Positions 18,384 through 39,324 of a DNA stretch of 64,000 nt are shown here, piece by piece. Origin of the DNA: Polytrichum commune (lineage: Eukaryota; Streptophyta; Polytrichopsida; Polytrichales; Polytrichaceae); the NCBI GenBank assembly GCA_950295325.1, contig OX485808.1:42431180-42495179 (forward strand). Direction: 5' to 3'. Both the position numbers and the translations under genes were made by a program. The notes under the pieces were generated by a model that saw nothing but the letters and a program-made list of their open reading frames with translations, ran no database searches and was not told the DNA's origin. Position 1 is the stretch's first letter, and every line of letters starts with the position of its first letter.

Positions 18384-18523
18384 CACACTTAACAACTAAA
18401 TATGATACTTAGTGTCATATGGTATTTTATGTCAGTATGGTAACTTCTCGGATAACACTTCTTATGAATATGTGAACAAATATTGTCATGGATGATGAAC
18501 GAGTTCATCCATTGGCCAAAACC
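18384..18523 (+). mobile_element. left half of a MITE split by the 18-kb transposon
   Basis: The sequence from about 18384 (CTAAATATGATACTTAGTG) to TTGGCCAAAACC matches 42780-42900 of the intact copy at 42768-43144, including TCATATGGTATTTTATGT, AACAAATATTGTCATGGATG and GAGTTCATC. The match stops exactly at the end of the 10-bp target duplication and resumes at 36839 on the far side of the large element. Confidence 0.8.
18514..18523 (+). repeat. target-site duplication, left copy
   Basis: GGCCAAAACC directly abuts the left end of the large transposon and is repeated at 36839-36848. The undisturbed MITE copy has the sequence once, in GTTGGCCAAAACCCTAC near 42890-42905. Ten bp is in the 8-11 bp range of MULE elements. 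Confidence 0.85.
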
Positions 18524-18581
18524 GGGAAACTCAAGTATGTGAGCGTAGAGCGGAGAGCGGAGAGCGGAGATTGGAGAGCGG
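18524..18581 (+). repeat. left terminal inverted repeat of the 18.3-kb transposon
   Basis: Starts GGGAAACTCAAGTATGTGAG and continues into repeated GAGCGGA units ending GATTGGAGAGCGG. It matches the reverse complement of 36787-36838 from position 12 inward almost base for base, and partly in the outer 11 bases. A further shared block, CCTATTTCCGTGG, lies at about 18626 (and inverted near 36650). Confidence 0.85.
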
Positions 18582-19524
18582 AAAATTTAGATTTTGTTGG
18601 GTAATTTTAGGAGAAGCAGTGCCTATTTCCGTGGAATTAGAGATAGTTTGAATTCTATATTTGGAAAGGTACCCCCATTCCCGTGGACATAATAACCCAG
18701 AATTGTTTGAGAAACCAACGGATCCTATAGGCGTGGAAGATTGCATTTGTTATCAAACATCTTATAGTATATGTTTTCAAATGTATCATATTAAATTAGG
18801 GCTGACGTCACCAAATTGAAATCAAAATACCATACACAAAATATTTTATTGGTCAACAAAATGTAGCCAACCTCAAGACTTACAAAAATGGGTAGTTAGT
18901 TAAAATAACTATATACTCTAGTTTAGGGCCATCTACACCCTATCTGCCGGGCATGTCCAATATGGGTAAAATGATCCAAAGAACATGCCATAAAACTCCG
19001 TCGCACCATAACAGCCTTCCAATTCAGTCCTTAGCTTAGCCAAAGACCTCAAAGACAAATCCCCCAAGTCCAACCTTAGAATCCTCTTGGAAATTTTTGA
19101 GGTGACGTGCCGGCTCTTTGAGAACAACATGAATTTCAATTTAAAAAGTTTGACGAGGTTATGTTCGCGTGCCAAACAAAACTTCCAATTGCTATATAGC
19201 AATTGGGATTGGAAGACGGCCAATGTGATTAGTGTGCACAACCATAAAATAAACCATCCACACTAATAGAAAGTATGGTCCCCCTATAACTAAGATCTCA
19301 CACTAAGAGCCGAGAGCTAGATTGTTTTGTGACTAGAAGTTAAGAGATCCGAACGATGAAGAAAAAATAAAGAATGCAATGCGGGTTGACATATGAATAT
19401 GAAATAATGGAGAGAAAGAATGAAACTTGCGCCGGATATCAAAAATAAAACCAACACACAACTTTTATTAAAGCCGGATAACAACAACAAACGGAGTTAT
19501 AATCTCCAAAACCAAAATGATAAA
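18582..19524. other. transposon subterminal region without clear gene
   Basis: Between the left end and the stop codon of the ParB-like gene. A 102-codon minus-strand frame at 18933-19241 has no recognisable motif. Sequence around 19190-19330 contains CACACTAATAG and CACACTAAG blocks reminiscent of MITE ends. The 3' untranslated region of the adjacent gene presumably lies at the right side. Confidence 0.4.
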
Positions 19525-22500
19525 CTAAGGGCTTGGAGAACATTCCCTATCACTCTCCTCACCCTCATTTGCTTCTAACAAGAAAAGATTTCGTGTTCCA
19601 CGCGAGAAATGACGAACGCGAGGAGGAGATGGGGACTCCGCCTTCGCAAAACAATCCGCCATTGCACTAGCATACGGGGGAAGCTCAAACGGCTTCGGAG
19701 GACTTGAAAACATGTCTCGACGAATGACTGCGACCTCCGCTGGCTCTCTAAACACCCAAGCAAAAGGATTAGAAACATGATGACACTAGAAAATGAGAAT
19801 TTGAAATCAAAGCAAACATGGCAAAATATAGAAAGCAAACTTACGCACAAAGAAATCCGAATGCCCTCTTGGTCATATTTTGAGGAGGATCAAAGATAGA
19901 TGTAGACGGTGCGGCAACTGAGCGAGATATACGCGCAGGCTGGGGATCGCGCATGGGGAGTAGGAGTGAATTGAAAATGACGGGGTCACTCTCAAGGGCC
20001 ACAATATGCCGCTCAAGGGAGCGACATGCTGTAATCGAACCACCTAAAGCAAAGAGAGGTAAAATGTTAGTATGAAAACTAGTCAAGGAAAAATAATGGA
20101 AAATTCAAAGTAAGGATGAAGTTGAAAAAGAAGGCGTACCTACACCACACTGCCAGTCCATAATAACATCATTCTTGTCGGTGAGAGTAGCGAGAAGGAT
20201 GGAAAAAAAAACAGGATGCTTCTCACGGGCACCTCGCCAAGGTACCCCATCACTGCGCATCGTCTGGCTCTTCTCATCGGTGAAGGTATTCAACCATCCA
20301 TCTCGTTGGAGGTTGTAACCATACTCTTGTATGGCCTCCTCCCGCACTCTAAGAACGGAGTTAACACGAACAAGAACTTTGATGTTGAACTTCCGAGTCT
20401 GCAACAATGAAAATAAAATTGAATTGAAATGAAATGGAATTGAAATTGAATTGAAATTGAAATGATAAGCAATACGGAAGGGGAAGAGAGGGAGACTTGC
20501 TTACCACTCCAGAGGGAACAACGGGAGATTGGAGGTCTAAATCATTCATTCCAAACCAATCTTCCGCGACGTAGAAGTCATAAGTGTGTGCCCAATCGAA
20601 AATACTCCTAGAAACACTGGCACTCGCACAATGGGCAAGAACAAGGACACCATGATCATAGAGGTTAGATTTCGCAAATGCAAAAAGACACTCATAGTAT
20701 GATTCATGGAGCTTGTTCCAAGCAGGAACATCGGTGGAGATGTTCGGCACCGGCAAATTTTCGGGAATGTCGGCGAAGAGCAAATCGAGGCCCTTGTGAG
20801 TTGTAGTCGAGGTGTTCACACGGGAATGACCTGCCCCAACCTGCAATTGAAACTTCATGAGAAAACAAGAAGGAAAGAAATAAACAAAGCAAAGGAAAAA
20901 AAATTGAGAATTGACGAAGGCAAGTATACAAACCTTGGCAATGAACTCTTGGATGCGGGTATATGCGGGGAGGGGACCTCCGGCAACCTCGGAATCCAGC
21001 ATTAGTTGAACCATGTCCACATTTTCGATGAGGGTAAGCGTGTTAGTGGCATCCGAAGAGGTGGCACTGGTATCCAAGAGAGCGGCCTTCCTCTTGCGAG
21101 GCAAAGAGAGGAGAGAAGTGCCACTATGAGATGGAGTGGCAAGAGATTGTGGATGAAATGCAGATGGAGTAACAGAAGGGGCAAGAGAGGGAGCAACGGA
21201 GGGAGCGATAGATGGACTGTGTGGAAGGGTGGGTGGCTCAACCGGGGTCTTAGAAGCAGACCGAGTGAGAATTTGGGAAGATGCTTGAGTGGCGGTCTTC
21301 TTTGCTCTGCCCTTTCTCCTTGGTGCCTTAGGAGGAGGAGGGGGAAGCTCAACGATGTCAGGGTCCTCCAAGGTAACAATGTTATTATCCAGAGCACTAC
21401 CCACAAGGCTAGCAAACAAAGCCTTCTCTTCCCCGGGGACAAATCCTGCAGCACAATCCAAGTACCATCCACCACCCTGCAAGTGCAATTCGGAAAACTT
21501 GTTTGTTTGCGCGGTCGTATACACGCAGAGGCTAGAAAAAATATTCACCCAGTCCGAGAGGTAGTCCGGCAAGGAAGATGAGGCCAATGCATTCTTCACA
21601 ACCAATTCTCTCATGATATACCTACATGACAAAACAAGAATGTAAGAAAACCAACAAAACGAGCAAGAAATGACATTAAGGAGAGGTGCAAAGTGGAGGA
21701 TAGATGTATTACCGATAGGCTACACGCTTGATAGCGAGAGCCCCCTCCTCGAACTCCAAGAGATTATCACCTTTGGCAAATGCGATGTCAGGCTTATCGC
21801 CGAGATAAGGCTTGAAGGCCTTGTCCCAAAGGACAATCCGCCAATGATCAACGTACTCACGAGGGCGCAAGATAGTTTCTGATGCGTCCCAATCAATGTC
21901 GACGGAGAGGCTCTCCTCTAAGATCTCAATTTCAACCGCGACTTCTTTCTCCAACTGCAGAGAAGGAGATGATTAGATATGAGATAAATGGAATAGAGGA
22001 AAATGAAAATGAAGAAGGCCGAGGAATGGATTTACTTGAGCCCAGAAGGACGCCTTGTGTAGCCAGTCGTCCAAAGCCCTCTCCCTCATAGGCTTGTCGA
22101 CGGGGAACTTGTTATCTAACCTTTCACGAAGGGGGGCGTTCCACCAGTGAAGCCACTTAGCTTTGAACGAAGCTTCGACCGGGCATGTGATAATTTTTTG
22201 CAATTTTTCAATTGTCATGTCCGTCGAAGAGAACTCATTAAAATGACGGTCAATCTGTGCACAAAATAAAAATGATTTGAGTTCAAAAGAGTAATAGAAT
22301 TGAAGAGTGATTTGGATGAATTGCGTTCAAGACTGATTTGAGTTCAAAAGAGTACCTCATGAAAGAAATCCTCTCCATTGTCAGGGTGTGCAACGGATAT
22401 GTACTTCTCAAAAGAACGGGCCCGAATACTTTTGATTGTCCTCTCCTGGGCCTTGGTCATAACATTCCAAATCTCAGTGGCCGACCTCTCCGCAACGGGT

Positions 22501-23725
22501 GTGGTCTCACGGTAATGCCTCACTGCAAGGTCTGCTTGAGCCGAAATGTCTCTCTGCAAGAAATGACCTTGTGAGTTCATATAATCGGTATGGAAATTAT
22601 CTATATTGGAAGCTCTAAATGATTGAATGCATAAAACCATACCTTGTAAAGAAACTTAACGAACACATCCGCGGTCAAGGTGTACCAAGTTGGGCGACTC
22701 TCCTTTATCTTCTCGCATGCTTTGTAGTCAGATGGCGATATAAGATCCTTGAAGGTGGACAACTCTAACCTCCCAAAAGTGCGGATTCGAAGGAGCTTGG
22801 CCGGAATGTTTGCCTTGACATAATCATGCTCGGTTGACCTGAGAAAAAATATGTGAGGAACGTGAGCTGAAAAGAATGGAAAAGAATTGAAACAAAAATG
22901 AAAAATAAATGAAAAAAATGAATGAGCTTACCAACTAATGTCGCTCATGGCATTGAGGAATATACCTGTGTATCCTCTAGGGTCAACAACAATGCAATCC
23001 ACCGAGATATGCCAACTCTTGTCATCGGCGTGGTGGTTATTGATGTGTCTCCACCAAGCGGTGACACGATGATTGCCTTCCCAGACGAAGAACATCTTCC
23101 CGGCGAAATGTGCAAGATCCGGATCCTCCTTGAGCTTGGCGTCAAATTCTGCGGAGGCCTCTTGCCAGAGAGGGCTCCAAGAGGCCATAATGCCAGGGGG
23201 AATGGGGAGGTCCACGGGAACGTCGTTGAAAGAAGACACGTAAAGAACCCGATCTCCCTCTCGGTATCCCATTACAAATTCACATTCCAAGCGCTGCACC
23301 TCAACCTCACTGATAGGACGGACAAGAGGGAGGGCTCTCAAGCGGCATAAAGGAATGGATAAGCGGGACTTACATGTTGGCTTAATCCGAAGGCGTTGGA
23401 TAACACCAATGGAGTCCTCCTTTTGTGATTTCCGAAGCTCAAGCTCACACACCACGGGATCCGTGTCGGCAACTGCTTGAACGGCATCTTCGCTCATTGC
23501 GAGAGCCTAACAAAAACACAAACAATAAAACCATGCTTAGAAAGCTAGAACTCAAAAAACTTGCTTAACAAATTATTCAACAACTATCCAACTCACCTCT
23601 ACTTGTAATGGGCCCTGCGAATTGAGACTCTCAACCTGCACAGCTTCAACTTCAACCGCGGGGGCCGCAAGAACAACATCCTCTCCAGATTGGGGTTGCG
23701 ATTGCGCAACCTGTGAAGAGTCCAT
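19525..23725 (-). CDS. ParB-like domain fused to a DNA methyltransferase-like domain
   Basis: Eleven exons: 23597-23725, 22932-23506, 22643-22838, 22356-22553, 22036-22254, 21713-21954, 20934-21621, 20505-20840, 20140-20398, 19845-20043, 19525-19747. All junctions are GT-AG and in frame; the total is 3264 nt (1087 aa). Residues ~90-235 look ParB-like: IPLCRLRALPLVRPISEVEV (the usual start) and VWEGNHRVTAW, with GNHR at 187-190 matching the ParB box II G-x-H-R. A Pro/Ser/Ala-rich linker spans roughly 610-700. The C-terminal part resembles a beta-order N4-cytosine/N6-adenine methyltransferase: motif IV-like LLFADIPE (773-776), then EKHPVFFSILLATLT, a SAM-binding-like DWQCGVGGS (942-950) and IVALESD. 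Motif IV should read (D/N/S)PP(Y/F); here it is DIPE, so catalysis is doubtful. It lies inside the transposon, next to the palindrome array, suggesting a DNA-binding or modification role for the element. Confidence 0.75.
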
Positions 23726-24613
23726 ATCCTAAGAACATGGAGAAAATGAGAATTTCACAAAGAAAAGTCAATAACTTCGTAACTATAAAGAAACAAATCC
23801 TCACAAAAACAATACAAGGCCGAGAGCAAACTACAAATGGAAATGGCCGAATGCTAAGTCAAGTGCTCAACTCTAGCACTAACCTACCTACGAATGAGAG
23901 GCCTCGGATCCGAGGCCTCTTTTCCTACCTCCTCCTTATGCACTACCCAAAAGAAAAAGGCCGAGAGAAATCTTATGTGAACATAGCAGTTTGACTTTTC
24001 AAGCACATACATTGTCTTCAAAATGAGGCCTCGGATCCGAGGCCTCTTCACAAACCTCCTACTCATGTAGTACCCAAAACAAGAAGGCCGAGAACAATCT
24101 TACACGAACATAACATTTTGATTTTTCTAGCATAAAATTGACACAAACATGAGGCCTCGGATCCGAGGCCTCTTCCCAAAACACATACTTATTCACTTCC
24201 CAAAACAAGAAGGCCGAGAGGATTCGAAAATGAACATAAGATTTTCATTTTTCAAGCACATACCTTGACACAAAAATGAGGCCTCGGATCCGAGGCCTCT
24301 TCACAAAGTACCTACTTATGCACTACCCAAAACAAGAGGGCCAAGCGCATTCAAAAATGAACATAACATTTTAACTTTTCATGCACATACCTTGACACAA
24401 AAATGAGGCCTCGGATCCGAGGCCTCTTCCGAATGCCCCTCCTTATGAAATACATACTACAGAAAATGGCCGAGAGAATTAAAAAATGAACCTAACATTT
24501 TCATTTTTCAAGCACACAACCTGACTCAAAAATGAGGCCTCGGATCCGAGGCCTCTTCCAAATGCCCCTCCTTGATGATTTTAAAACCTAACCAATTTAC
24601 TTGTTACATGGCT

Positions 24614-24631
24614 CACGGGTGTTCACCCGTG
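24614..24631. repeat. second palindrome type, CACGGGTG-TT-CACCCGTG (copy 1)
   Basis: Eight-bp arms around TT. Further copies are at 25008-25025 and 25078-25095, and a degenerate one near 28195-28212. Each sits in a ~70-bp module with CTAACCAA..TTACTTGTTACATGGCCCACGGG. This is a second, rarer palindromic site class inside the main array. Confidence 0.8.
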
Positions 24632-24652
24632 AGGTTCACATTTGATGATGTT

Positions 24653-24968
24653 CCAGGGGAGGTCACTCCATTGCCAAGTTGCATCACCAAAATGGGTCAA
24701 AATTTTCTCAAATTTTTTTGGGACGTAGATATACATGATATCTATTACGGAGTAAAATATCATGACCAAATTTGATGACCATATTTTTCTAGAAAACATA
24801 CCATTTCTACCTAGAATGACGCAGAATTCAACTAAAACAATTACTAGAAAAAATGAAGATGACAAAAAATTTCAAAAAAATATACAAAAGATATAATCAA
24901 TAGTTATGAATATAGAGAAAAAAAATCATAATTTTTAAAAATATTTCACATGGAGACATCTCCCCGTG
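24653..24968. mobile_element. hAT-like MITE nested in the palindrome array
   Basis: Ends are CCAGGGGAGGTCACTCC and its inverted counterpart ..CATCTCCCCGTG. Flanking 8-mers ATGATGTT (24645-24652) and ATGATGCT (24969-24976) look like a one-mismatch 8-bp target duplication. The interior is AT-rich and non-coding. It is homologous, in inverted orientation inside, to 38929-39324 and 55563-55972. It inserted into one of the 70-bp CACGGGTG modules. Confidence 0.75.
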
Positions 24969-26639
24969 ATGATGCTAAATCCTACCCAAGTTACCTGTTA
25001 CATGGCCCACGGGTGTTCACCCGTGGGGCACACATTTGATGATGTTAAAACCTAACCAAATTACTTGTTACATGGCCCACGGGTGTTCACCCGTGGGGCA
25101 CAAGGCAGAGAGCAAGGAACCAAAAAAGCAGGAAAGTTGACATTCTATTAGTTTGAGAAATCAAGAACCTCACCTCTCTCAAAACCCTACCTTTCACATA
25201 CTCAAACTTACACAAATAGGAGGCTTCGGATCCGAGGCCTCTTCCCCTAGCTGGTTCTTATGCACTACAGAAAACAAGACAAGACCGAGAGCAATTGATG
25301 TGCACATAACATTTTGATTTTTCAAGCACAAACCTACCCGAAATAAGAGGCCTCGGATCCGAGGCCTCTTCCTATGGCTCCCACTTATGCACTACACAAT
25401 AGAAGAAATGGCCGATAGCAAGGAATCAAGAAAGCAAGAAAGTTGACATTCCATTAGTTTGAGAAATCAAGAACCTCGCCTCTCTCAAAACCCTACCTCT
25501 CACATACTCAAACTTACACAAATATGAGGCCTCGGATCCGAGGCCTCTTCCCCTAGCTGCTTCTTATGCACTACACAAAACAAGACAAGGCCGAGAGCAA
25601 TTGATGTGCAAATAACATTTTGATTTTTAAAGCACAAACCTACCCACAAATAAGAGGCCTCGGATCCGAGGCCTCTTCCTATGGCTCCCACTTATGCACT
25701 ACACAATAGAAGAAATGGCCGATAGCAAGGAATCAAGAAAGCAAGAAAGTTGACATTCCATTAGTTTGAGAAATCAAGAACCTCGCCTCTCTCAAAACCC
25801 TACCTCTCACATACTCAAACTTACACAAACAAGAGGCCTCGGATCCGAGGCCTCTTCACAAACCTCCTACTCATGTAGTACCCAAAACAAGAAGGCCGAG
25901 AGTAATCTTACACGAACATAACATTTTGATTTTTCTTAAATAAAATTGACTCAAACATGAGGCCTGGGATCCGAGGCCTCTTCCCAAAACACATACTTAT
26001 TCACTACCCAAAACAAGAAGGCCAAGAGCATTCAAAAATGAACATGAGATTTTCATTTTTCAAGCACATACCTTGACACAAAAATGAGGCCTCGGATCCG
26101 AGGCGTCTTCACAAAGTACCTACTTATGCACTACCCAAAACAAGAAGGCCAAGAGCATTCAAAAATGAACATAAGATTTTCATTTTTCAAGCACATACCT
26201 TGACACAAAAATGAGGCCTCGGATCCGAGGCCTCTTCACAAAGTACCTACTTATGCACTACCCAAAACAAGAAGGCCAAGAGCATTCAAAAATGAACATA
26301 AGATTTTCATTTTTCAAGCACATACCTTGACACAAAAATGAGGCCTCGGATCCGAGGCCTCTTCACAAAGTACCTACTTATGCACTACCCAAAACAAGAA
26401 GGCCAAGAGCATTCAAAAATGAACATAAGATTTTCATTTTTCAAGCACATACCTTGACACAAAAATGAGGCCTCGGATCCGAGGCCTCTTCCGAATGCCC
26501 CTCCTTATGAAATACATACTACAGAAAATGGCCGAGAGAATTCAAAAATGAACCTAACATTTTGATTTTTCAAGCACAAACCTTGACACAAAAAAGAGGC
26601 CTCGGATCCGAGGCCTCTTCCCAAAGCTCCTACTTATGC

Positions 26640-26985
26640 ACTTAACAAAACACATTTCCCCCCCCCCCGCAGCTTCAGACCTCCATATCTTCCACGTGTG
26701 GTCTCCAAATCTAACAATCAACCACTCTATCGTCATCTACGTGAAATGTAGATGCCGATGGACACCTCACTTGCCCCATTTGGGCAAAAATCAAGGAAGT
26801 TATGCCTGTTTAAACATTCGCAGTCCCGGGAGCCACTCCCAGGGGACTGCTGATCGAGGGCACTAAAAGGAGGCCTCGGATCCGAGGCCTCATTTTCAAA
26901 CTAGTGTACATACTCAAAAACAAGCAAAGTGCCTCATTCATACAAGCTATACGTTGAATCAAAAAACCTCAAGTGGCCTCGGCTG
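26640..26985 (+). repeat. ~350-bp spacer block with hairpin (copy 1 of 2)
   Basis: This block replaces an ordinary spacer and recurs almost unchanged at 27120-27475. It begins after a C-run, contains CACGTGTGGTCTCC, TCATCTACGTGAAATGTAGATG (an inverted repeat of GATG/CTACG type) and a strong hairpin GCAGTCCCGGGAG-CCA-CTCCCAGGGGACTGC at about 26820-26850. Confidence 0.75.
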
Positions 26986-27119
26986 AGAGGCCTCGGATCC
27001 GAGGGCTCACACACAAAGTAATTTACGTACTCCAAACCAACCATAGTGCCTCATCCGTACACTAGTTTTGGAACACATAAAAGAGGCCTCGGATCCGAGG
27101 CCTCTTCTCCTAGCTTCTA

Positions 27120-27475
27120 CATATGCACTCAACAAAACACATTTCCCCCCCCCGGCAGCTTCAGACCTCCATATCTTCCACGTGTGGTCTCCGAATCTAA
27201 CAATCAACCACTCTATCGTCATCTACGTGAAATGTAGATGCCGATGGACACCTCACTTGCCCCATTTGGGCAAAAATCAAGGAAGTTATGCCTGTTTGAA
27301 CATTCGGAGTCCCGGGAGCCACTCCCTGGGGACTGCTGATCGAGGGCACTAAAAGGAGGCCTCGGATCCGAGGCCTCATTTTCAAACTAGTTTACATACT
27401 CAAAAACAAGCAAAGTGCCTCATTCATACAAGCTATACGTTGAATCAAAAAACCTCAAGTGGCCTCGGCCGAGAG
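27120..27475 (+). repeat. ~350-bp spacer block with hairpin (copy 2 of 2)
   Basis: Near-identical to 26640-26985. The hairpin arm at about 27306-27336 differs by two bases but keeps the stem in part. The duplication carries the flanking 22-bp palindromes with it, so it is a segmental duplication inside the array. Confidence 0.75.
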
Positions 27476-28310
27476 GCCTCCGATCCGAGGCCTTACACAC
27501 AAACTAGTTTACATACTCAAAACCAACCAAAGTGCCTCTTCCGTACACTTGTTTTGGAACACATAAGAGAGGCCTCGGATCTGAGGCCTCATTCACAAAC
27601 TAGTTTACATACTCAAAACAAACCAAAGTGCCTCATCCGTACACATGTTTTGGAACACATAAAAGAGGCCTCGGATCCGAGGCCTCATTCACAAACTAGT
27701 TTACATCCTCAAAAACAAGCAAAGTGCCTCATTCATACAAGTTATACTTTGAATCAAAAAACCTCAAGTGGCCTCGGCCGAGAGGCCTCGGATCCGAGGC
27801 CTTACACACAAACTAGTTTACATACTCAAAACCAACCAAAGTGCCTCTTCCGTACACTTGTTTTGGAACACATAAAAGAGGCCTCGGATCCGAGGCCTCA
27901 TTCACAAACTAGTTTACATACTCAAAACCAACCAAAGTGCCTCTTCTCTACACTTGTTTTGGAACACATAAAAGAGGCCTCGGATCCGAGGCCTCATTCA
28001 CAAACTAGTTTACATCCTCAAAAACAAGCAAAGTGCCTCATTCATACAAGTTATACTTTGAATCAAAAAACCTCAAGTGGCCTCGGCCGAGAAGCCTCGG
28101 ATCCGAGGCCTCACACACAAACTAGTTTACATACTCAGAACCAACCAAAGTGCCTCATAAAGACATGCCTAACCAAGTTACTTGTTACATGGCCCACGGG
28201 CGTTCGCCTGTGGGGCACAAGGCAGAGAGCAAGGAATCAAAAATGGAAGTAAGTTGACATTCCATTAGTTTGAGAAATCAAGAACCTCGCCTCTCTCAAA
28301 ACCCTACCTC

Positions 28311-30600
28311 TCACATACTCAAACTTACACAAATATGAGGCCTCGGATCCGAGGCCTCTTGCCCTAGCTCGTTCTTGTGCACTACACAAAACAAGACAAG
28401 GCCGAGAGCAATTGATGTGCACATAACATTTTGATTTTTCAAGCACAAACCTACCCACAAATAAGAGGCCTCGGATCCGAGGCCTCTTCCTATGGCTCCC
28501 ACTTATGCACTACACAATAGAAGAAATGGCCGAGAGCAAGGAATCAAGAAAGCAAGAAAGTTGACATTCCATTAGTTTGAGAAATCAAGAACCTCGCCTC
28601 TCTCAAAACCCTACCTCTCACATACTCAAACTTACACAAATAAGAGGCCTCGGATCCGAGGCCTCTTCCCCTAGCTCCTTCTTATGCACTACACAAAACG
28701 AGACAAGGCCGAGAGCAATCGATGTGGACAAAACATTTTGATTTTTCAAGCACAAACCTACCCACAAATAAGAGGCCTCGGATCCGAGGCCTCTTCCTAT
28801 GGCTCCCACTTATGCACTACACAATAGAAGAAATGGCCGAGAGCAAGGAATCAAGAAAGCAAGAAAGTTGACATTCTATTAGTTTGAGAAATCAAGAACC
28901 TCGCCTCTCTCAAAACCCTACCTCTCACATACTCAAACTTACACAAATAAGAGGCCTCGGATCCGAGGCCTCTTCCCCTAGCTCCTTCTTATGCACTACA
29001 CAAAACGAGACAAGGCCGAGAGCAATCGATGTGGACAAAACATTTTGATTTTTCAAGCACAAACCTACCCACAAATAAGAGGCCTCGGATCCGAGGCCTC
29101 TTCCTATGGCTCCCACTTATGCACTACACAATAGAAGAAATGGCCGAGAGCAAGGAATCAAGAAAGCAAGAAAGTTGACATTCCATTAGTTTGAGAAATC
29201 AAGAACCTCGCCTCTCTCAAAACCCTACCTCTCACATACTCAAACTTACACAAATAAGAGGCCTCGGATCCGAGGCCTCTTCCCCTAGCTCCTTCTTATG
29301 CACTACACAAAACGAGACAAGGCCGAGAGCAATCGATGTGGACAAAACATTTTGATTTTTCAAGCACAAACCTACCCACAAATAAGAGGCCTCGGATCCG
29401 AGGCCTCTTCCTATGGCTCCCACTTATGCACTACACAATAGAAGAAATGGCCGAGAGCAAGGAATCAAGAAAGCAAGAAAGTTGACATTCCATTAGTTTG
29501 AGAAATCAAGAACCTCGCCTCTCTCAAAACCCTACCTCTCACATACTCAAACTTACACAAATAAGAGGCCTCGGATCCGAGGCCTCTTCCCCTAGCTCCT
29601 TCTTATGCACTACACAAAACGAGACAAGGCCGAGAGCAATCGATGTGGACAAAACATTTTGATTTTTCAAGCACAAACCTACCCACAAATAAGAGGCCTC
29701 GGATCTGAGGCCTCTTCCTATGGCTCCCACTTATGCACTACACAATAGAAGAAATGGCCGAGAGCAAGGAATCAAGAAAGCAAGAAAGTTGACATTCCAT
29801 TAGTTTGAGAAATCAAGAACCTCACCTCTCTCAAAACCCTACCTCTCACATACTCAAACTTACACAAATAAGAGGCCTCGGATCCGAGGCCTCTTCCCCT
29901 AGCTCCTTCTTATGCACTACACAAAACAAGACAAGGCCGAGAGCAATTGATGTGCACATAACATTTTGATTTTTCAAGCACAAACCTACCCACAAATAAG
30001 AGGCCTCGGATCCGAGGCCTCTTCCTATGGCTCCCACTTATGCACTACACAATAGAAGAAATGGCCGAGAGCAAGGAATCAAGAAAGCAAGAAAGTTGAC
30101 ATTCCATTAGTTTGAGAAATCAAGAACCTCGCCTCTCTCAAAACCCTACCTCTCACATACTCAAACTTACACAAATAAGAGGCCTCGGATCCGAGGCCTC
30201 TTCCCCTAGCTCCTTCTTATGCACTACACAAAACGAGACAAGGCCGAGAGCAATCGATGTGGACAAAACATTTTGATTTTTCAAGCACAAACCTACCCAC
30301 AAATAAGAGGCCTCGGATCCGAGGCCTCTTCCTATGGCTCCCACTTATGCACTACACAATAGAAGAAATGGCCGAGAGCAAGGAATCAAGAAAGCAAGAA
30401 AGTTGACATTCTATTAGGTTGAGAAATCAAGAACCTCACCTCCCTCAAAACCCTACCTCTCACATACTCAAACTTACACAAATATGAGGCCTCGGATCCG
30501 AGGCCTCTTGCCCTAGCTCGTTCTTGTGCACTACACAAAACGAGACAAGGCCGAGAGCAACATGATGTGCACATAACCTTTTGATTTTTCAAGCACAAAC
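28311..30600 (+). repeat. 307-bp higher-order repeat, about 7.5 units
   Basis: Each 307-bp unit holds two 22-bp palindromes 128 bp apart and then 179 bp to the next. Unit starts (CATACTCAAACTTACAC) are at about 28311, 28618, 28925, 29232, 29539, 29846, 30153 and 30460. Units are near-identical, implying recent unequal exchange or amplification. Two older units lie near 25193-25500 and 25500-25800. Confidence 0.9.
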
Positions 30601-30673
30601 ATACCTTTCCTAACATGTTCCTAAACCCAAATCAAGACAAGGCCGAAAGCAAGTCAAGCTGATATTCCAAATA

Positions 30674-31694
30674 CTATGAGAAATCAAGGTGATAGAAAGC
30701 AAAAACGTTGGCGAACATAGCTTGGCCGAGATCCCGACACCTTACCAGAATTTGGAGTATGCCCTCCACTGAAGCCCCTATATTGGCGCCACTATCTTCC
30801 GAGGTCCCGTCCTCTGTCGGCGATATTGGAGTGCTTCTCGAATCTCCGAGGTTTACTTGCGCCATTCCTCTCCCGCGGCCACGCCCTCGCCTTGATGTTT
30901 GTTGTGTTCCGCCCGCCTTGCTTCGCAGAAATCTTGAAGCAGGGGTCACAACATCCACACTTAGGGTTTCTGCGCATGGGTCTCCTCCTTCAGCTCTTTC
31001 GCGGCCTCCCAACAAATTTGATTTCAGATCTTCCTTTGCCGCTTTCCTCTTGGACGCCTTCATTTTTTCTCTTGCTTGAATCGTTGGTTGTCCCGACATC
31101 GGTTCTCGCTCTTCTAACGCCTTCTCAATTTGTTGTGCTACCTCCTTGTTGTCTTCTTCATAGATATTTCCACTATCTCCACTCCCCCCCTCTTCCTATA
31201 TTTAAGATAAAACAATGTTTATAACAATGATGACAAACCATAATATCTAAAAGAAAAGTTGTTTCACAGTTGAATATGTTCTACCATTTTCATTATGTGC
31301 TCAAACAACTGAATATATGGAGAACCCGAAGAATACGTACGACACTTGTAGAGTTTGTCTCTTCGCGTGAGTCCTCTTGGATGCTGTCGTTTCCCAACTC
31401 CTCCACTTCTGCCATTGGTTGCGCTTTACTTCCGTCCGCCTCTTCTACAATCGGTGATAAATGAAAAGGCCGAATCCCACAGTCTAACCTCCACGAAGGT
31501 TTCCGCAGGTCCTTAATGCTTTGGCTCAAATCCTCGGGCGTCCCACGGCCCTCAATTGGCGCTTTCCTTGCCTGTGACTTTTGTGTCCTCACTGTCTTTC
31601 TCTTCTTATCAGTGTAATGTGTAGACGATCGCCTCCTCTTCTTTTTCTTAGATGGTTCCGTTGTCGGAGGTTGTGAATTGCCTATTTCCTTCAT
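30674..31694 (-). CDS. basic low-complexity accessory protein of the transposon
   Basis: Two exons, 31341-31694 and 30674-31195, in phase 0, give 291 aa. The N-terminal part has a strong nuclear-localisation-like run (KKKKRRR, then KKRK). The second exon is acidic at first (EEGGSGDSGNIYEEDNKE), then basic with GRGRGRG, a motif often seen in nucleic-acid-binding disordered tails. No known domain is recognised. It is transcribed divergently from the transposase and lies just beyond the palindrome array, so it is likely an element-encoded accessory factor. The 3' exon boundary is less certain than the start. Confidence 0.5.
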
Positions 31695-32013
31695 GTGTTC
31701 AACCCTCCCGCAATTCAGACCTATTCGCTCTATTTCCTTTCCACAACCTCACCACATCAAACTCACACATTGGAAAGAAAGTGAGCAATCGCATTCTTCT
31801 CAGTATATAATTGCAATACCTCCCGATGGGAGGCGCGCTTTACTATCTGACAACCATCTTTGTAATTAGGGGTATCTTTTTTTAGGATGCCTGACAGTTT
31901 TGTCTCCTTCCTGATATTCATGCGTATTTGTTTATAACTTCATCGTCATCACCATTCTCCTTCTCTATGCATCTTTGCATCTTTGTTCCTTCACGTTTGC
32001 TTTCTCTGCCTTC
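31695..32013. promoter_or_regulatory. divergent promoter region between accessory gene and transposase
   Basis: The 319 bp between the two divergent start codons must hold both leaders. AT-rich stretches lie around 31800-31960, and a pyrimidine-rich leader precedes the transposase ATG. No 22-bp palindrome lies within it. Exact elements cannot be assigned. Confidence 0.5.
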
Positions 32014-35000
32014 ATGGCTTCCACCTCAATTCTTCCTCCCGTCTCTGAGATGGCCGAACTTCGTTCACATGGCATCGGGGTCCCTATTATATTCCCCATT
32101 GGTGCACAAGGTATTGTTGTTGTCTCGGAGCTTCATCTTAGCATTAGGTTCTCTTTGAAAGCTAGTACAATATGGGTAGAGCGTGAGATCTACCATCCTG
32201 ATACTGGATTGCTCGTTCATACCTTCCATGAGACCTCCAAGATAACTGACAATGGCAATGTAGTGTGGGAGCTTGGCGCGGGAAAGTATAGGGTTTGTGG
32301 CTGGCCAGATTCTCAGATGGAAGTGTCAACAGAAATCCTTCCTCCTCTTCGATCATCCACTGTTGCCTTTAGCACACCCCCCGTAATAAGCGTCAAGACC
32401 GAGCCTGGTGTAGACAACGTTATAGACTTGTCTGATTCTTCGAGTGAAGATGTACCAGTGTATAAGGTTGCTGTCCATGATTCCCCTCATTTGTTTCCCT
32501 TTGCATCCTACATAACGCCTTCTCCATCTAGCTCTGTCCCTTCAACTCCTTCGGTCCCTACGTCTAAACCTCCTCAAACTATTGTTCAATGTCTTCGTCG
32601 TCTTGGCTCTATGCCCGGTAGTAAGAACGTCCTCAAGAAAATAGATTACGATAAAATCAAAATCCAAGAAGTTAATCACCTTCCCCCTCGTTTCGATGGC
32701 ACCCAGTTATTTGTCCTCCCTGCAGCAGAAGTCTCTTCATCTCAAACCAGGGCCAAGTCGTTGGACGGCATGGACAAGCAATATGATGGCCATGTTTGGA
32801 CTAAGACTCAAACCACCAACATTACAAACGACGTTGGCCTTGCATTTCGTTCCTCTACCTGTGTTGGCCATCTCCAATGCCAAAACCCGAGTTGTGATTA
32901 CCTTCAACGCGCCCATCGTACCTCTAAGGTCAATGACACAGAATTTGAAGGTTTCACTAAAGATCCTTTCCGTCTCTCTGGCATTGTGCCATCCGGATCT
33001 ACTCTTGTCTGCAGGATCTGTAAAGAGCCTCCCAAATGCATTGCACTATGCGAGGCCAAAATCTTCTACGTCCATGGGAAGGAGTCATCCCAAAGAGCCT
33101 GCATTCATCTCGGTTCTCATCAACATCCAGTGAAGGTTGGAGACTGCAGAGACAGTCGGAAGCGTATCAATGCACTTCTTGAGGAGCACGTTGAACGTAC
33201 GCCTCAAGCCACCCACAGCAAGATCGTCCTTGAAGCTAGCAAGGACATTGTTGGTGAGTTTCTCCTTTCTGGCGATAATGACACACACCGTCTCTTCTCT
33301 TTAAAAGAGCTTGAACCTGTTTTTGAGAGCTGTAGAGAGTTGAATTCCCCAAACCTTCGCTCTAAGGTTACCTCTTTCAAATATTTGCGGAGGTTTGGTG
33401 TTATGGATGGCATCGCAAAGCTCCGAGGCGTTAGCAATTGGGCCTACGTCCAACGGAACCAATTCCCAGGACAAGGTGACGATACAGACAAGGTGTTCGT
33501 CTTCAAGATGTCGGAGGTTGGTCCTGGAAGTGGAGTGGATTTGGTTCGTCGGATGCAACCGGGTGGGGACCTGGAGAGCGCGTGGATGATGTCCGATCAC
33601 GTGAAGCGGGTCAAAGGGTGGACCACCATGGCCGCTCATGTGTACAATGGGACTTATCAACGGGTCATGACCATTTCATGTTGTGATTTCCAATCGGAGG
33701 ATAAGGATGCCCAAGTTCTCTTCTGGCAGAACCTCAACCACGTCATGGCCCGACACGGTATCCCACATCCAAACTTTATAGGCTTCATGGCGGACAGTGC
33801 CCAAGCCAATTGGAACGCTGTTCGCATTGTATATGGTTCGGGGGATCCCAAAGTTCCAATGGAGGGTCGTGAGCGCACTTGTTTTTTCCATTGGAAACAA
33901 TCGCTCGAAAAACATACGAAATCGTATATAAAGCATGAGTTACAAGACCAACATAGACATCTTTGCCTTCAATATCGAAATGCGTCATCTATGGAAGAGG
34001 CTGAGACTAGGTACCTAGCTATCAAGGCTTGGTGGGCGTCATCGAATTGTACAAGTGAGGACGGTCTCAAGCATCTTCAGCTCTGGCTTGCTTTTTGGCA
34101 CTTCCGCTACCTTCAATGGGGTGGTTTCATGGAACTGGTACATCTCCTTCATAATTCATTATTGGTTTTTCTTGGATTCGATTTCCTCTCTCTGTACATT
34201 TATATTAATACTTGATTTCTCCAATCAGGAAAAGGTTTTAACCCAAGACCAATTGGCCGAGATGCCGTCGTGCAATCTTGCGGAGTCCGTCCACAACAAA
34301 TGGCTTCAAGCCTCCGGCAACAAGGGTGGAGATCTATACGTGGCTACGGTTGACGACTACATTCGCGCCTTCTTACAAGTTGTTGCATACTACCAGTTCC
34401 TTAAAGGTGGAATTGGCGGAGATGGTCCAAGCAAAGAAGAACTAAAGCTCAGGGGTGCTCAACGTCGAGCTCAGCGTACTGGCGACCCCACAGTGTTGCA
34501 GAAGGTCTTGCTTGACATGTCCGGTGGGGAAGAATTTTGCACTCGCGATCCACACCTTGAGGGCGCCGAGGTGTTTGGATCGCAGAAGCGAAGATCAGAC
34601 ACTCCAATTGGTGATGATGGCGAGACCCACCGCCCCGATACCGTGAACTTCTCTCGCCCTCCCCCCGGTAAGCGTGTCACTCGATCTCAACCAGAAACAC
34701 TACCCACTATCATTGAGGAGTCTTCCCCCTCTGTACAAGAGGTTCAAGTGCCTTCACCTGCAGGACTTGGTTTCCAGCGTGTCACTGCCGTACAAGAAAC
34801 CAAAGTAGATGTCTCTCTTTGGCATATTGCCCGCATACCCTATACGTCTGGGAAGTCTTGTTGGGCTAATCATGCGGGCACGAAGAAGAAGTGCACCGCA
34901 AGAATCGTCACTAATAATAAGAGCGTCCCTGCGCCGACCTACACCGGTATGTGGCATCATTACAAACTCCAATCTATGAAGCGCACGGACTTTGTCTTTT

Positions 35001-35686
35001 GCCCCGACGACATTGAGCGTTGCGTGAAGGGCCCTCGTCGGAAATGGGTCATGCCGTTCTCTGCTCATGACCAGAAGCCTCCTATTCCCCCAATCTGGCC
35101 CGTGAAGATTGGTACCAACCTCACCCGCTCGGATATCTTCGCCCTTGAGAACGCAGGTTTTCAACTCCCACCAAAGGAGCGCATCACACCGACTCAACTC
35201 TTCACCAACTCTGCTCCCCCGCTGGATATGTCTGGAATCCGTGTTCCAGAAAACCCCGACATGATCCCTCCGACAAGATTGTCCAAGCTTGTTCGGCGAT
35301 CCAGTAGCGCACCTTCGGCAAAGCAGAGGCAGATGGTGGCCTCTGCTGAAGCTATGCATGGTACCGTTATGAAGTTAACTATGATCCCTCAACCGGGATT
35401 TGGTTGCATTATCACACTGCAGTCCAAATCAGAACCCCAACCACCGATCTACCAAGTGACAGTCAGTTCTCTTCCAGAGTGCAACTGCGCATTTTTCTTG
35501 GATATGATTTCCAAGTTCAGCCGCAAACGAAATTCTTATTTGAATTGTAAGCATTTGTATTACATTTTCATCAAGGTTTCTAATTTGGATGCGGAAGTGA
35601 ATTTGTTCATTCACGCCCCGACATTTAGCTTCAACGAAGTCAAACTCATCCTCGAAGGGGGTCTTTTGACAAAGTCTACTTCTTAG
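32014..35686 (+). CDS. MULE-like transposase
   Basis: Two exons, 32014-34137 and 34229-35686 (GTACAT donor, CCAATCAG acceptor, phase 0), give 1193 aa. An in-frame ATG at 31975 is an alternative start. Residues ~300-400 form a Cys/His cluster (CQNPSCDYL, CRICKEPPKC) likely to bind zinc. The core holds TISCCDFQSED (D558), GFMADSAQANW (D594), the C-x2-H motif CFFH (623-626) and, after the intron, NLAESVHNKW (E727), fitting a MULE-type DDE/RNase-H fold; which residue is the first catalytic Asp is uncertain. The C-terminus has a SWIM-type C-x-C..C-x-H motif (CNC..CKH) and another Cys-rich patch (CWANHAGTKKKC). It should bind the element's ends and catalyse excision and insertion in the nucleus. 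No frameshift or stop was found. Confidence 0.8.
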
Positions 35687-35847
35687 GATTTATCTCAGCC
35701 TAGCAGTACTTTGGGCTATGATATATGTGTCCATTTCTGGACCTCTTGTGAAGCAATAATTGATTGATATAATAAAGGTATAATCTCAATGATTATTTTT
35801 ATTTGCTTCAAAATTTTGTATTACAATGCTTCCTATGTCTATCAACT

Positions 35848-36336
35848 CTATTTCCGTTTTGCATACTTCTTAGATGATTGCGAGGGAGGTGGACCCGGTC
35901 GAAGCAAATCCATATAAGAAATTGTCTTATCTCTCTTTCGATCCTTCAGCGGAAGATGATGCGGCGTCATTCCTCTCATCCGTTCGCGAAATGAAAGAGA
36001 CTTCGAAGATTCCCCTTCCACCTTCACCTCCTCCTCCGTTTCGTTCGATTTGTCTTCATCTAAATCAACATCCTTCTCCGGCACATCTTCCTGCCTTTTT
36101 TCCTTTTTCTCATATTGTTTTTGCTCCTCCTGCACCCTCCACCTCCATGCTTGTGTAGACTGCGAAAATGGAGTCAGCTCGTAGTCATCACTACTTTGAT
36201 TTCCAGCAGCAAACTCAAATTCCGGCGATGGATTAAATGGAATATGAGGATCTCCTAGACTTCTAATTTCCTTCTCCCATCCTAATCCAGCAAACATGTC
36301 TCTCTCATCTCCCATTGTGTGCAACTGTATATACAA
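35848..36336 (-). CDS. small charged accessory protein of the transposon
   Basis: A single reading frame of 162 codons; an internal start (MGDERD) at 36315 is equally plausible. The protein is hydrophilic: an aromatic/acidic N-terminal half (GLGWEKEIRSLGDPHIPF), a highly acidic middle (DVDLDEDKSNETEEEVKVEG) and a basic C-terminus (LKDRKRDK..SKKYAKRK). No family is recognised. It is convergent with the transposase (gap 161 bp) and lies inside the right end of the element. Confidence 0.5.
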   Translation of the reverse strand: MYIQLHTMGDERDMFAGLGWEKEIRSLGDPHIPFNPSPEFEFAAGNQSSDDYELTPFSQSTQAWRWRVQEEQKQYEKKEKRQEDVPEKDVDLDEDKSNETEEEVKVEGESSKSLSFRERMRGMTPHHLPLKDRKRDKTISYMDLLRPGPPPSQSSKKYAKRK

Positions 36337-36786
36337 TTATGTTGGGTATGAGTCCAATTTATAATCTATTCGGCCACAAACGATAATTGCTAAAGTCCAA
36401 GCTATAGAATAGACTCACATATAAGACAAAGAGAAAAGTGATGAATAAAAACCAAGCAAGTTTATTATTTTGATTCCTTTGTATATTGATTGACTCATTC
36501 TTCAATTATACCAATCTCAAAAAATCCATTTTCATTGATTTTTCTTGTAGTCATCATTGGTTTTAATAATTCAACCACCTCACGGTTTCCAAACTAAATG
36601 AGACCATTTCAAATTCAGGGTTTTTATTTTATTTTATGACCTATACATCCCACGGAAATAGGTCCAATTTTTTTACTATTATTGTCAAATTCTGGAATAT
36701 TCTTGGTATATTCTTGGCTATTTTGGAATATCCTAATTTTAGTCTGACAAGTTTACTATTTTTATTTCCTCTACGCTCTCCGCTCT

Positions 36787-36838
36787 CCGCTCTCCAAATC
36801 TCCGCTCTCCGCTCTACGCTCACATACAAGTGTCGTCC
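36787..36838 (-). repeat. right terminal inverted repeat of the 18.3-kb transposon
   Basis: Read from the right tip inward it starts GGACGACACTTGTATGTGAG and continues CGTAGAGCGGAGAGCGG, matching the left end at equal offsets. Inside it an additional partly inverted set of CTCTCCGC units extends to about 36770. Confidence 0.85.
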
Positions 36839-36995
36839 GGCCAAAACCCTACTTTCTCTTGTCAACCACTTGTGATGAAATGTTGTCATGGATGATTGAA
36901 ATTTGGATGAAAAATCACTTGGTAAGTGACAGTAATTGCAACACTGTAAATCTCTATAATCCCCCCCAAAAAAATTTACAAGGAATGACAAATAA
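36839..36995 (+). mobile_element. right half of the split MITE, starting with the right target duplication
   Basis: GGCCAAAACC (36839-36848) is the right copy of the target duplication. Following sequence (CTCTTGTCAACCACTTGTGATG, GACAGTAATTGCAACACTG, TTTACAAGGAATGACAAATAATG) matches 42893-43045 of the intact MITE. The far terminus of this copy is degraded or lost. Confidence 0.8.
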
Positions 36996-38928: not shown

Positions 38929-39324
38929 CACGGGGAGGTCACCACGTGCAGACAACGTTTGTTATCCCTATATTACGTGCCATAAATAATTTTAAATTTT
39001 ATGATATTTTTCCACATATACATAATCATTGATAGTATATTTGTATATTTTTTTGAATTTTTTCGTCATCTTCATTTTTTAGTAAATTTTTTAGTTCAAT
39101 TTTGCGTCATTCTAGTTAGAAACAATATTTTTATTTTTAAAAATAATCAAATTTTGTTTTTATTTGTTATTGTGTAATAGGGACCGTGTATATCTACTCA
39201 TGGGAAAAAAATTTGATAAAATTTTAACCCATTTTGGTGATGTTTTATGTAAAAAGTAGGATTTTTTACATGTAAAGTGTTTGCACGTAGTTGTTCAACT
39301 TTACAATGGAGTGACCTCCCCGTG
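38929..39324. mobile_element. hAT-like MITE with perfect 8-bp target duplication
   Basis: Ends CACGGGGAGGTCACCACGTG and, inverted, CAATGGAGTGACCTCCCCGTG. The 8-mer TTCTCTTG flanks both sides (38921-38928 and 39325-39332), the duplication size of hAT elements. The ~395-bp interior is AT-rich and non-coding. Confidence 0.85.

Follow-up and report, generated by a model that had tools for sequence, protein, structure and literature searches.

Family-Specific Dyad-Site Arrays Suggest Self-Recognition by an Accessory Protein of a Mutator-Like Element in Polytrichum commune

The window analyzed here, a stretch of 64,000 nucleotides from Polytrichum commune (GenBank assembly GCA_950295325.1, contig OX485808.1, positions 42,431,180 to 42,495,179 of the forward strand), holds an apparently Mutator-like transposable element that carries, besides a divergent transposase gene, an accessory gene and an array of near-identical 22-bp dyad sites. 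We propose that the array comprises cognate sites of the element's own accessory protein, with the specificity residing in the part encoded by exons 2-6, ahead of a methyltransferase-fold C-terminus, and from the sequence comparisons set out below we give this reading a probability of roughly 0.6. Since the site types change together with the accessory gene among related elements, the pattern suggests that the protein uses the sites as tags by which it recognizes its own kind.

Dyad Sites in a Predicted Intron of the Accessory Gene

Scanning the window with the consensus GAGGCCTCGGATCCGAGGCCTC gave 43 sites at two mismatches or fewer, the first starting at 23898 and the last ending at 30507; 34 of these are perfect and nine have one or two mismatches, and four extra matches with 4-6 mismatches (offset neighbors) are excluded from the count. 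About 43 identical palindromes had been described in the original prediction, which placed them beside a ParB-like gene. The number and the pairing with the gene both stand, while the ParB label is unproven and the position is revised by the gene model. The model predicts, from 23728 down to 19525, a minus-strand gene of 11 exons separated by GT-AG introns and encoding 1087 aa from the first ATG, and two further exons, A and B, join it in frame across the array to give 1356 aa. Because of this junction, and because exon A recurs in a distant relative with type-II sites, again upstream of the array and with unchanged strand (35% identity, E 1.35e-5; types are defined below), the array most simply lies inside a predicted intron of the accessory gene, bordered in the model by the end of exon B at 30746 and the start of exon 1 at 23728, with phase 0 on both sides.

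23898..30507, no strand: array of 43 dyad sites, consensus GAGGCCTCGG-AT-CCGAGGCCTC (window scan)
31341..31694, minus strand: exon A, Lys/Arg-rich, with the predicted start codon (gene model; 100% in copy C1a, 35% in L088)
30746..31195, minus strand: exon B (gene model; 98.6% in C1a)
23729..30745, minus strand: predicted phase-0 intron containing the array, ~7 kb, donor GTAAGG, acceptor TTAG
23597..23728, minus strand: exon 1 (gene model)
22932..23506, minus strand: exon 2, the "ParB-like" part with a conserved GNHR motif, whose lineage matches the site type (relatives' alignment)
21713..22838, minus strand: exons 3-6 (22838-22643, 22553-22356, 22254-22036, 21954-21713), swapped together with the array in recombinant L047
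20934..21621, minus strand: exon 7, with a low-complexity linker (gene model)
19845..20840, minus strand: exons 8-10, N6/N4 DNA methyltransferase-like domain (profile and tblastn comparisons)
19525..19747, minus strand: exon 11, with the stop codon (gene model)

The 1087-aa protein matched no Pfam family at E <= 5. Homology queries with single exons matched 233 and 72 proteins, whereas the spliced-protein query gave 0 matches among 8000 scored candidates, a contrast to be expected if the database consists of unspliced predictions.

In the 407.8-Mb genome the exact 22-mer is present 1903 times, as against 0 for its control read backwards. Within the array the spacers form blocks with periods of ~127, 128+179 and 96 bp, together with compound units of greater length. 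Pooling the 43 sites, 1% of the cells in the palindrome are off consensus, as against 28-34% in the 20 bp on each side and 28-47% in flanks out to 60 bp. The same contrast is seen across the 30 nearest genomic copies, a comparison whose Fisher values ignore shared ancestry: off-consensus cells amount to 29/3916 in palindromes and 180/15567 in spacers, to 13/2136 and 104/5062 at non-CpG G/C positions, and to 0/1068 and 65/10031 at A/T positions. At their non-CpG positions the palindromes thus appear clearly constrained. Exon 2 likewise looks to be under purifying selection, its off-consensus rates at codon positions 1, 2 and 3 being 0.0082, 0.0047 and 0.0168 in the same 30 copies.

The array region also holds repeats of other kinds. 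A second, unrelated inverted repeat, approximately CACGGGTGTTCACCCGTG with variants, was seen by eye four times in window 24600-25110 and 28170-28220; three of these copies belong to one repeat family, and the repeat looks like a small insertion that underwent duplication. Positions 24682-24888 match 39040-39242, outside the element, in inverted orientation at 83-95% in three pieces, as would a small dispersed repeat that had inserted into the array. A shorter motif, GTGGCCTCGGC[CT]GAG, immediately precedes the sites at 26973, 27459, 27768 and 28077, where a compound inverted repeat results.

Site Types across Genomic Copies

A genome search with exon 2 returned 1270 first-look candidates, of which 150 were scored, and all 150 matched. 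We examined 53 copies: the 30 best (window copy included), L015, and 22 hand-picked for divergence. A copy was assigned to a type when it had at least two 22-mers within four mismatches of one of three patterns, the center being left free; for the two type-III copies, L050 and L066, 4.0 and 3.9 kb of extra upstream sequence were included. Type I, the site of the window, was found in 36 of the 53 copies, type II (ACCCTCTCGG-NN-CCGAGAGGGT) in 12 and type III (AATCCCACGG-NN-CCGTGGGATT) in two, and no copy had two types. With exact arms and a free center, type II occurs 1998 times in the genome and type III 85 times (reversed controls, 0).

All three types are 10-2-10 dyads, that is, two 10-bp half-sites around a 2-bp center. 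The consensus half-sites GAGGCCTCGG, ACCCTCTCGG and AATCCCACGG differ pairwise at 5, 4 and 4 of the 10 positions, and each difference is mirrored in the opposite arm; the inner bases C.CGG are common to all, the outer ones vary, and the center varies among loci (AT, AA, TT, GT). A symmetric protein dimer that recognized the sites would be expected to leave such a mirrored geometry behind. The repeat unit, by contrast with the dyad, ranges from 64 bp in type III through 118 bp in L055 and ~139 bp in L048 to 96-307 bp in the window.

The sites lie outside exons in each of the four exon-mapped copies (window, L047, L048, L050). In type-II elements intron 5 contains another array (L070, 12 sites; L069, 4 sites), and L075 has two sites past its last aligned exon. 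This distribution bears on whether the array could be an intronic enhancer or promoter read by a host factor. Its location would suit such a role, since two divergent predicted genes have their 5' ends nearby, but a host factor would predict neither the additional sites, in intron 5 and downstream of the gene, nor a lineage-specific change of half the site within a single genome, and we consider this explanation very unlikely.

On a tree of exon 2 calculated from 33 of the 53 copies, with 20 near copies omitted, the four labels require three changes, the minimum, and 0 of 200 shuffles scored as low. Types I and III are each set apart by a branch with full support, and the copies lacking a standard site group together with weak support (83/76). 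As near copies cluster by descent, what tells most is how the lineages differ, rather than the number of copies.

Asymmetric sites occur in two lineages, L053 with mostly GAGCCCTCGG-AT-CCGAGGCCTC and L061 with AGGGTCTCGG-TT-CCGAGAGGTA, as if arms had changed singly. Hairpins formed in the intron RNA were also considered and set aside, on argument only, given that many sites in L053 and L061 break the outer pairs yet keep the half-site geometry. In L071, downstream of the type-III copy L050, the intron after exon 2 is ~1 kb longer than that of the window, exon 3 being first aligned near 1083; no type-III site was found in L071.

A Natural Recombinant

The association can be dissected in the recombinant L047. 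Its exons 2-6 are 76-89% identical to those of L048 and 56-72% to those of the window, whereas its exons 7b-10 share 78-88% identity with the window as against 39-64% with L048, with exon 7a in between. The transposase fragment of L047 (residues 403-710) is 93% identical to that of the window; the transposase of L048, compared over residues 13-140 only, is 55% identical to the window's, and of the two further loci checked for the L048 transposase, L087 has none and L088 holds part. The sites of L047 are type II in both introns. Since L047 combines type-II sites with a window-like methyltransferase part and transposase, the site type in this one recombinant goes with exons 2-6, and not with the methyltransferase or transposase segments. 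Together with the three dyad types of one geometry, L047 strengthens the earlier suggestion that selection acts on the site itself and that the site is paired with the neighboring gene.

The recombinant also bears on the idea that the dyads recruit the element's transposase, either for transposition or for autoregulation. Repeated transposase-binding motifs are known from other plant transposons. In the window, however, all 47 near-matches at four mismatches or fewer start within 23898-30486, no dyad site was found at that threshold in the terminal repeats or their vicinity, and in L047 a window-like transposase fragment stands with type-II sites, so that we regard recruitment of the transposase as distinctly unlikely.

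Several observations weigh against reading the array as cognate sites of the accessory protein. L047 is a single recombinant lineage, and the transposase segments compared in L047 and L048 are different ones. The array is adjacent to exon 2, and the association is partly due to shared descent and block exchange; adjacency to exons 2-6 could also mean that the block is exchanged for positional reasons. Type II does not form one side of a branch on the exon-2 tree (two changes), with type III and the copies lacking a standard site nested among it. The pairing of gene and palindromes expected in relatives by the original prediction is absent, in the stretch seen, from three of the 53 copies, which have none of the three types; one of these, L061, has a variant of its own, with 11 copies within two mismatches of its asymmetric site, and L059 and L068 show no site in the 2.1 kb covered of each. 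Locus L016, conversely, has two sites and no long match to the element outside the array. The homology of the N-terminal part of the accessory protein to ParB is unproven, as detailed below. Finally, palindromes had been predicted to diverge more slowly than spacers, which holds overall and fails at CpG, where the two decay equally fast (16/712 and 11/474), as would be expected if most copies were methylated and silent.

This last point, along with the strong tandem structure and the recent block duplications, would also suit neutral tandem repeats in which unequal exchange and gene conversion keep the palindrome alike. Homogenization would, however, carry the spacers too, whereas these diverge while the dyad stays; one dyad geometry persists in three types despite units of 64 to ~307 bp; and the non-CpG and A/T positions show the differences given above, uncorrected for shared ancestry. 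Neutrality therefore appears to us a slender possibility.

The ParB-Like and Methyltransferase-Like Parts of the Protein

The GNHR motif of exon 2 is strongly conserved across 21 relatives, with G, N and H invariant and R nearly so, and resembles the ParB_N signature. The Pfam profile PF02195 matched none of the 21 exon 2 relatives and nine of nine phage ParB-domain proteins, a set that had been found with a ParB consensus seed. SopB and P1 ParB, which are bona fide ParB-type proteins, also miss PF02195 and were for that reason kept out of our ParB profile; a Pfam miss by itself therefore still leaves room for ParB. An hhalign comparison of exon 2 with ParB_N gave a probability of 0.35-0.73%, with the best piece at GNHR, and 7 of 100 column shuffles scored as high. 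Searches by tblastn returned only three unrelated records for the ParB-like part against phages and no match for exon 2 against plasmids. Phage proteins in which ParB_N is followed by N6_N4_Mtase, the same order as proposed here, keep the ParB idea alive.

A parS-like partition role, put forward in the original prediction, would make the dyads segregation sites bound by a true ParB. The GNHR motif, the palindromic sites near the gene and the behavior of SopB and P1 ParB speak for it. The result of 0/21 against 9/9 for PF02195, a profile score within the shuffle range, the chromosomal setting of the element, and the lack of a ParA among the few translations scanned with Pfam (the remaining element ORFs lying outside the scan) speak against it, and leave it hardly credible.

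The C-terminal part is more readily placed. PF01555 matched exons 8-10 at E 0.057 with a 141-aa cut, which is below the curated cut-off, and at 0.14 with 253 aa, and gave no match with the whole protein. A tblastn search with the methyltransferase part matched 67 phage records when E values up to 10 were allowed; the best has 1e-3, and all 20 records listed of these 67 are annotated as methylases or methyltransferases. Weak matches in PDB were DpnA (E 0.007), a cytosine-N4 methyltransferase (0.29) and CcrM (0.41), and hhalign against six phage methyltransferases, run without a shuffle control, gave a probability of 96% over 61 columns. The SAM-binding motif I is kept (DWQCGVGG). Judged by these comparisons, exons 8-10 encode an N6/N4-methyltransferase-like fold with motif I. 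Motif IV, assigned by eye at a position outside the segment aligned by hhalign, reads ADIPEN in the window and L047, ANVPEN in L048 and VDVPDN in L050, and thus departs from [DNS]PP[YFW] in all four copies read. Catalysis by this domain is doubtful because motif IV, so assigned, is degenerate.

These features bear directly on the proposal that the protein marks its own element: bound to the dyads, it would set 6mA or 4mC in or near them through its methyltransferase domain, as a badge against silencing. The fold with its SAM-binding motif would be suitable, and such a function has been suggested for a similar transposon protein in Ectocarpus (PMC12477816). Set against this are the DIPE, NVPE or DVPD at motif IV, the variable center (AT, AA, TT, GT), which leaves no common GATC, and L047, whose site type has stayed the same even though its methyltransferase part resembles the other lineage's. 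A GATC methylation target, another of the original suggestions, is likewise weakened by the 64 of 86 type-II sites that have no AT center. We therefore consider self-marking by methylation, though the leading alternative, unlikely.

The Host Element

The element itself is complete, and its ends are defined by comparison with a second genomic copy. The following features were identified:

18524..36838, no strand: complete Mutator-like element, 18,315 bp, with ends common to another genomic copy and perfect 10-bp duplications outside
18514..18523, no strand: left target-site duplication GGCCAAAACC, 10 bp, perfect
36839..36848, no strand: right target-site duplication GGCCAAAACC, 10 bp, perfect
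18524..18563, plus strand: left terminal inverted repeat (core; GAGCGGA tandem repeats next to it), 42-nt pair
36799..36838, minus strand: right terminal inverted repeat, 42-nt pair
32014..35686, plus strand: divergent transposase gene, MULE-like, with a SWIM-like CxC...CxH end (both by eye); ORFs 31915-34215 and 34019-35686

The termini, GGGAAACTCAAGTATGTG... and ...CACATACAAGTGTCGTCC, are shared with the second copy (contig C1, 14,989 bp), which has a different perfect 10-bp duplication, TATATAAGGA, on both sides; target-site duplications were checked in these two copies. The length lies within the 8-11 bp described for Mutator-like elements (MULEs; PMC6446971), and an initial reading of the ends with a 4-bp duplication was superseded by it. 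The terminal inverted repeats, a 42-nt pair with 86% complementarity, are short for the MULE family. The transposase showed DDE-like and SWIM-like motifs by eye, 72 relatives at E <= 1, all homologs without a functional name, and no relevant Pfam match. Although Pfam does not recognize the transposase, the 10-bp duplication and the SWIM-like end (by eye) point to a Mutator-like element.

Seven-base tandem repeats, GAGCGGA and CTCTCCG, are present at both ends of the element (18541-18582 and 36769-36821) and are possible transposase sites. A 162-aa open reading frame on the minus strand beyond the transposase (35848-36336) is possibly a third gene of the element.

Proposed Function

We suggest the following scenario for how the array and the accessory protein could act together: (i) a dimer of the protein would bind each dyad through the region encoded by exons 2-6; (ii) the many close-set sites would enable it to tell copies of its own family apart from the rest of a large genome; and (iii) once bound, the protein would maintain the element in an expressible state, whether by displacing host silencing, as the VANC proteins discussed below do, or by placing a methyl mark of its own. 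Of the two, anti-silencing is probably to be favored over the methyl mark, because motif IV, assigned by eye, is degenerate in each of the four copies examined for it.

Our results provide concrete candidate target sites, in at least three classes within one genome, and the natural segment swap points to the exons that set specificity. With these in hand, the idea that a transposon recognizes and protects only its own copies becomes directly testable, and the proteins may offer new sequence-specific DNA-binding domains.

Comparison with Known Systems

The clustering of palindromic sites near a gene is shared with bacterial ParB-parS systems, which differ from the present case in that here there is no recognizable ParB_N, no ParA in the scanned translations, many more sites and a eukaryotic chromosome. 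The phage fusions, such as that of Evtepia phage NatCom_11697, have the same order of ParB_N and then N6_N4_Mtase; the Evtepia phage protein, however, measures 422 aa and has both domains above the Pfam cut-offs.

A closer counterpart has been described in the alga Ectocarpus, where the 21.5-kb transposon Sola1-1_Ec32 encodes a 1104-aa protein with ParB-like and N4/N6 methyltransferase parts, opposite to the transposase; the paper suggests that these proteins act by binding and modifying the transposon that encodes them, and cites similar ones for green and red algae (PMC12477816). The two systems are alike in protein size (1104 as compared with 1087 or 1356 aa), in the orientation opposite to the transposase and in residing on a giant DNA transposon. 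They are unlike in superfamily, Sola there and Mutator-like here, and in that the ParB part here is undetected by Pfam; site arrays and specificity classes are not mentioned in the sections of the Ectocarpus paper drawn on here, nor do these name target sites, and the likeness is one of description, between unaligned sequences. The works cited for the green and red algal proteins are reportedly a 2011 chapter, said to be by Iyer et al., and Petroll et al. 2025.

The original prediction had called the pairing undescribed. That no longer applies to the kind of protein, for which there are published cases in algal transposons; what appears to be new are the co-evolving site arrays, as lineage-specific dyad arrays paired with a ParB-like/methyltransferase protein did not turn up in our search of open-license papers.

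The best functional parallel comes from the VANDAL elements of Arabidopsis, whose VANC proteins (VANC21, VANC6) bind arrays of motifs in noncoding tandem repeats and strip silencing marks in a sequence-specific manner, with motifs and proteins changing together among related families (PMC5735166). Both systems have an element-encoded protein, arrays in introns or other noncoding parts, and a motif that differs by family along with the protein. The VANC motifs, however, are 8-9 bp long and in a single orientation, as opposed to the 22-bp dyads found here, and VANC proteins carry DUF1985/DUF287, which were not matched here in the parts scanned (exons A and B lay outside the scan); anti-silencing, moreover, is in our case inferred. 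On balance, and at somewhat less than even odds, we suggest that these arrays represent a second, independent system of self-recognition and anti-silencing in plant Mutator-like elements, convergent with VANC, in which a methyltransferase-fold protein, perhaps of phage ParB-methyltransferase ancestry and with a decayed catalytic site, would read family-specific 10-2-10 dyads multiplied in its own introns, and in which new families could arise through joint exchange of the specificity segment and the array, as L047 suggests.

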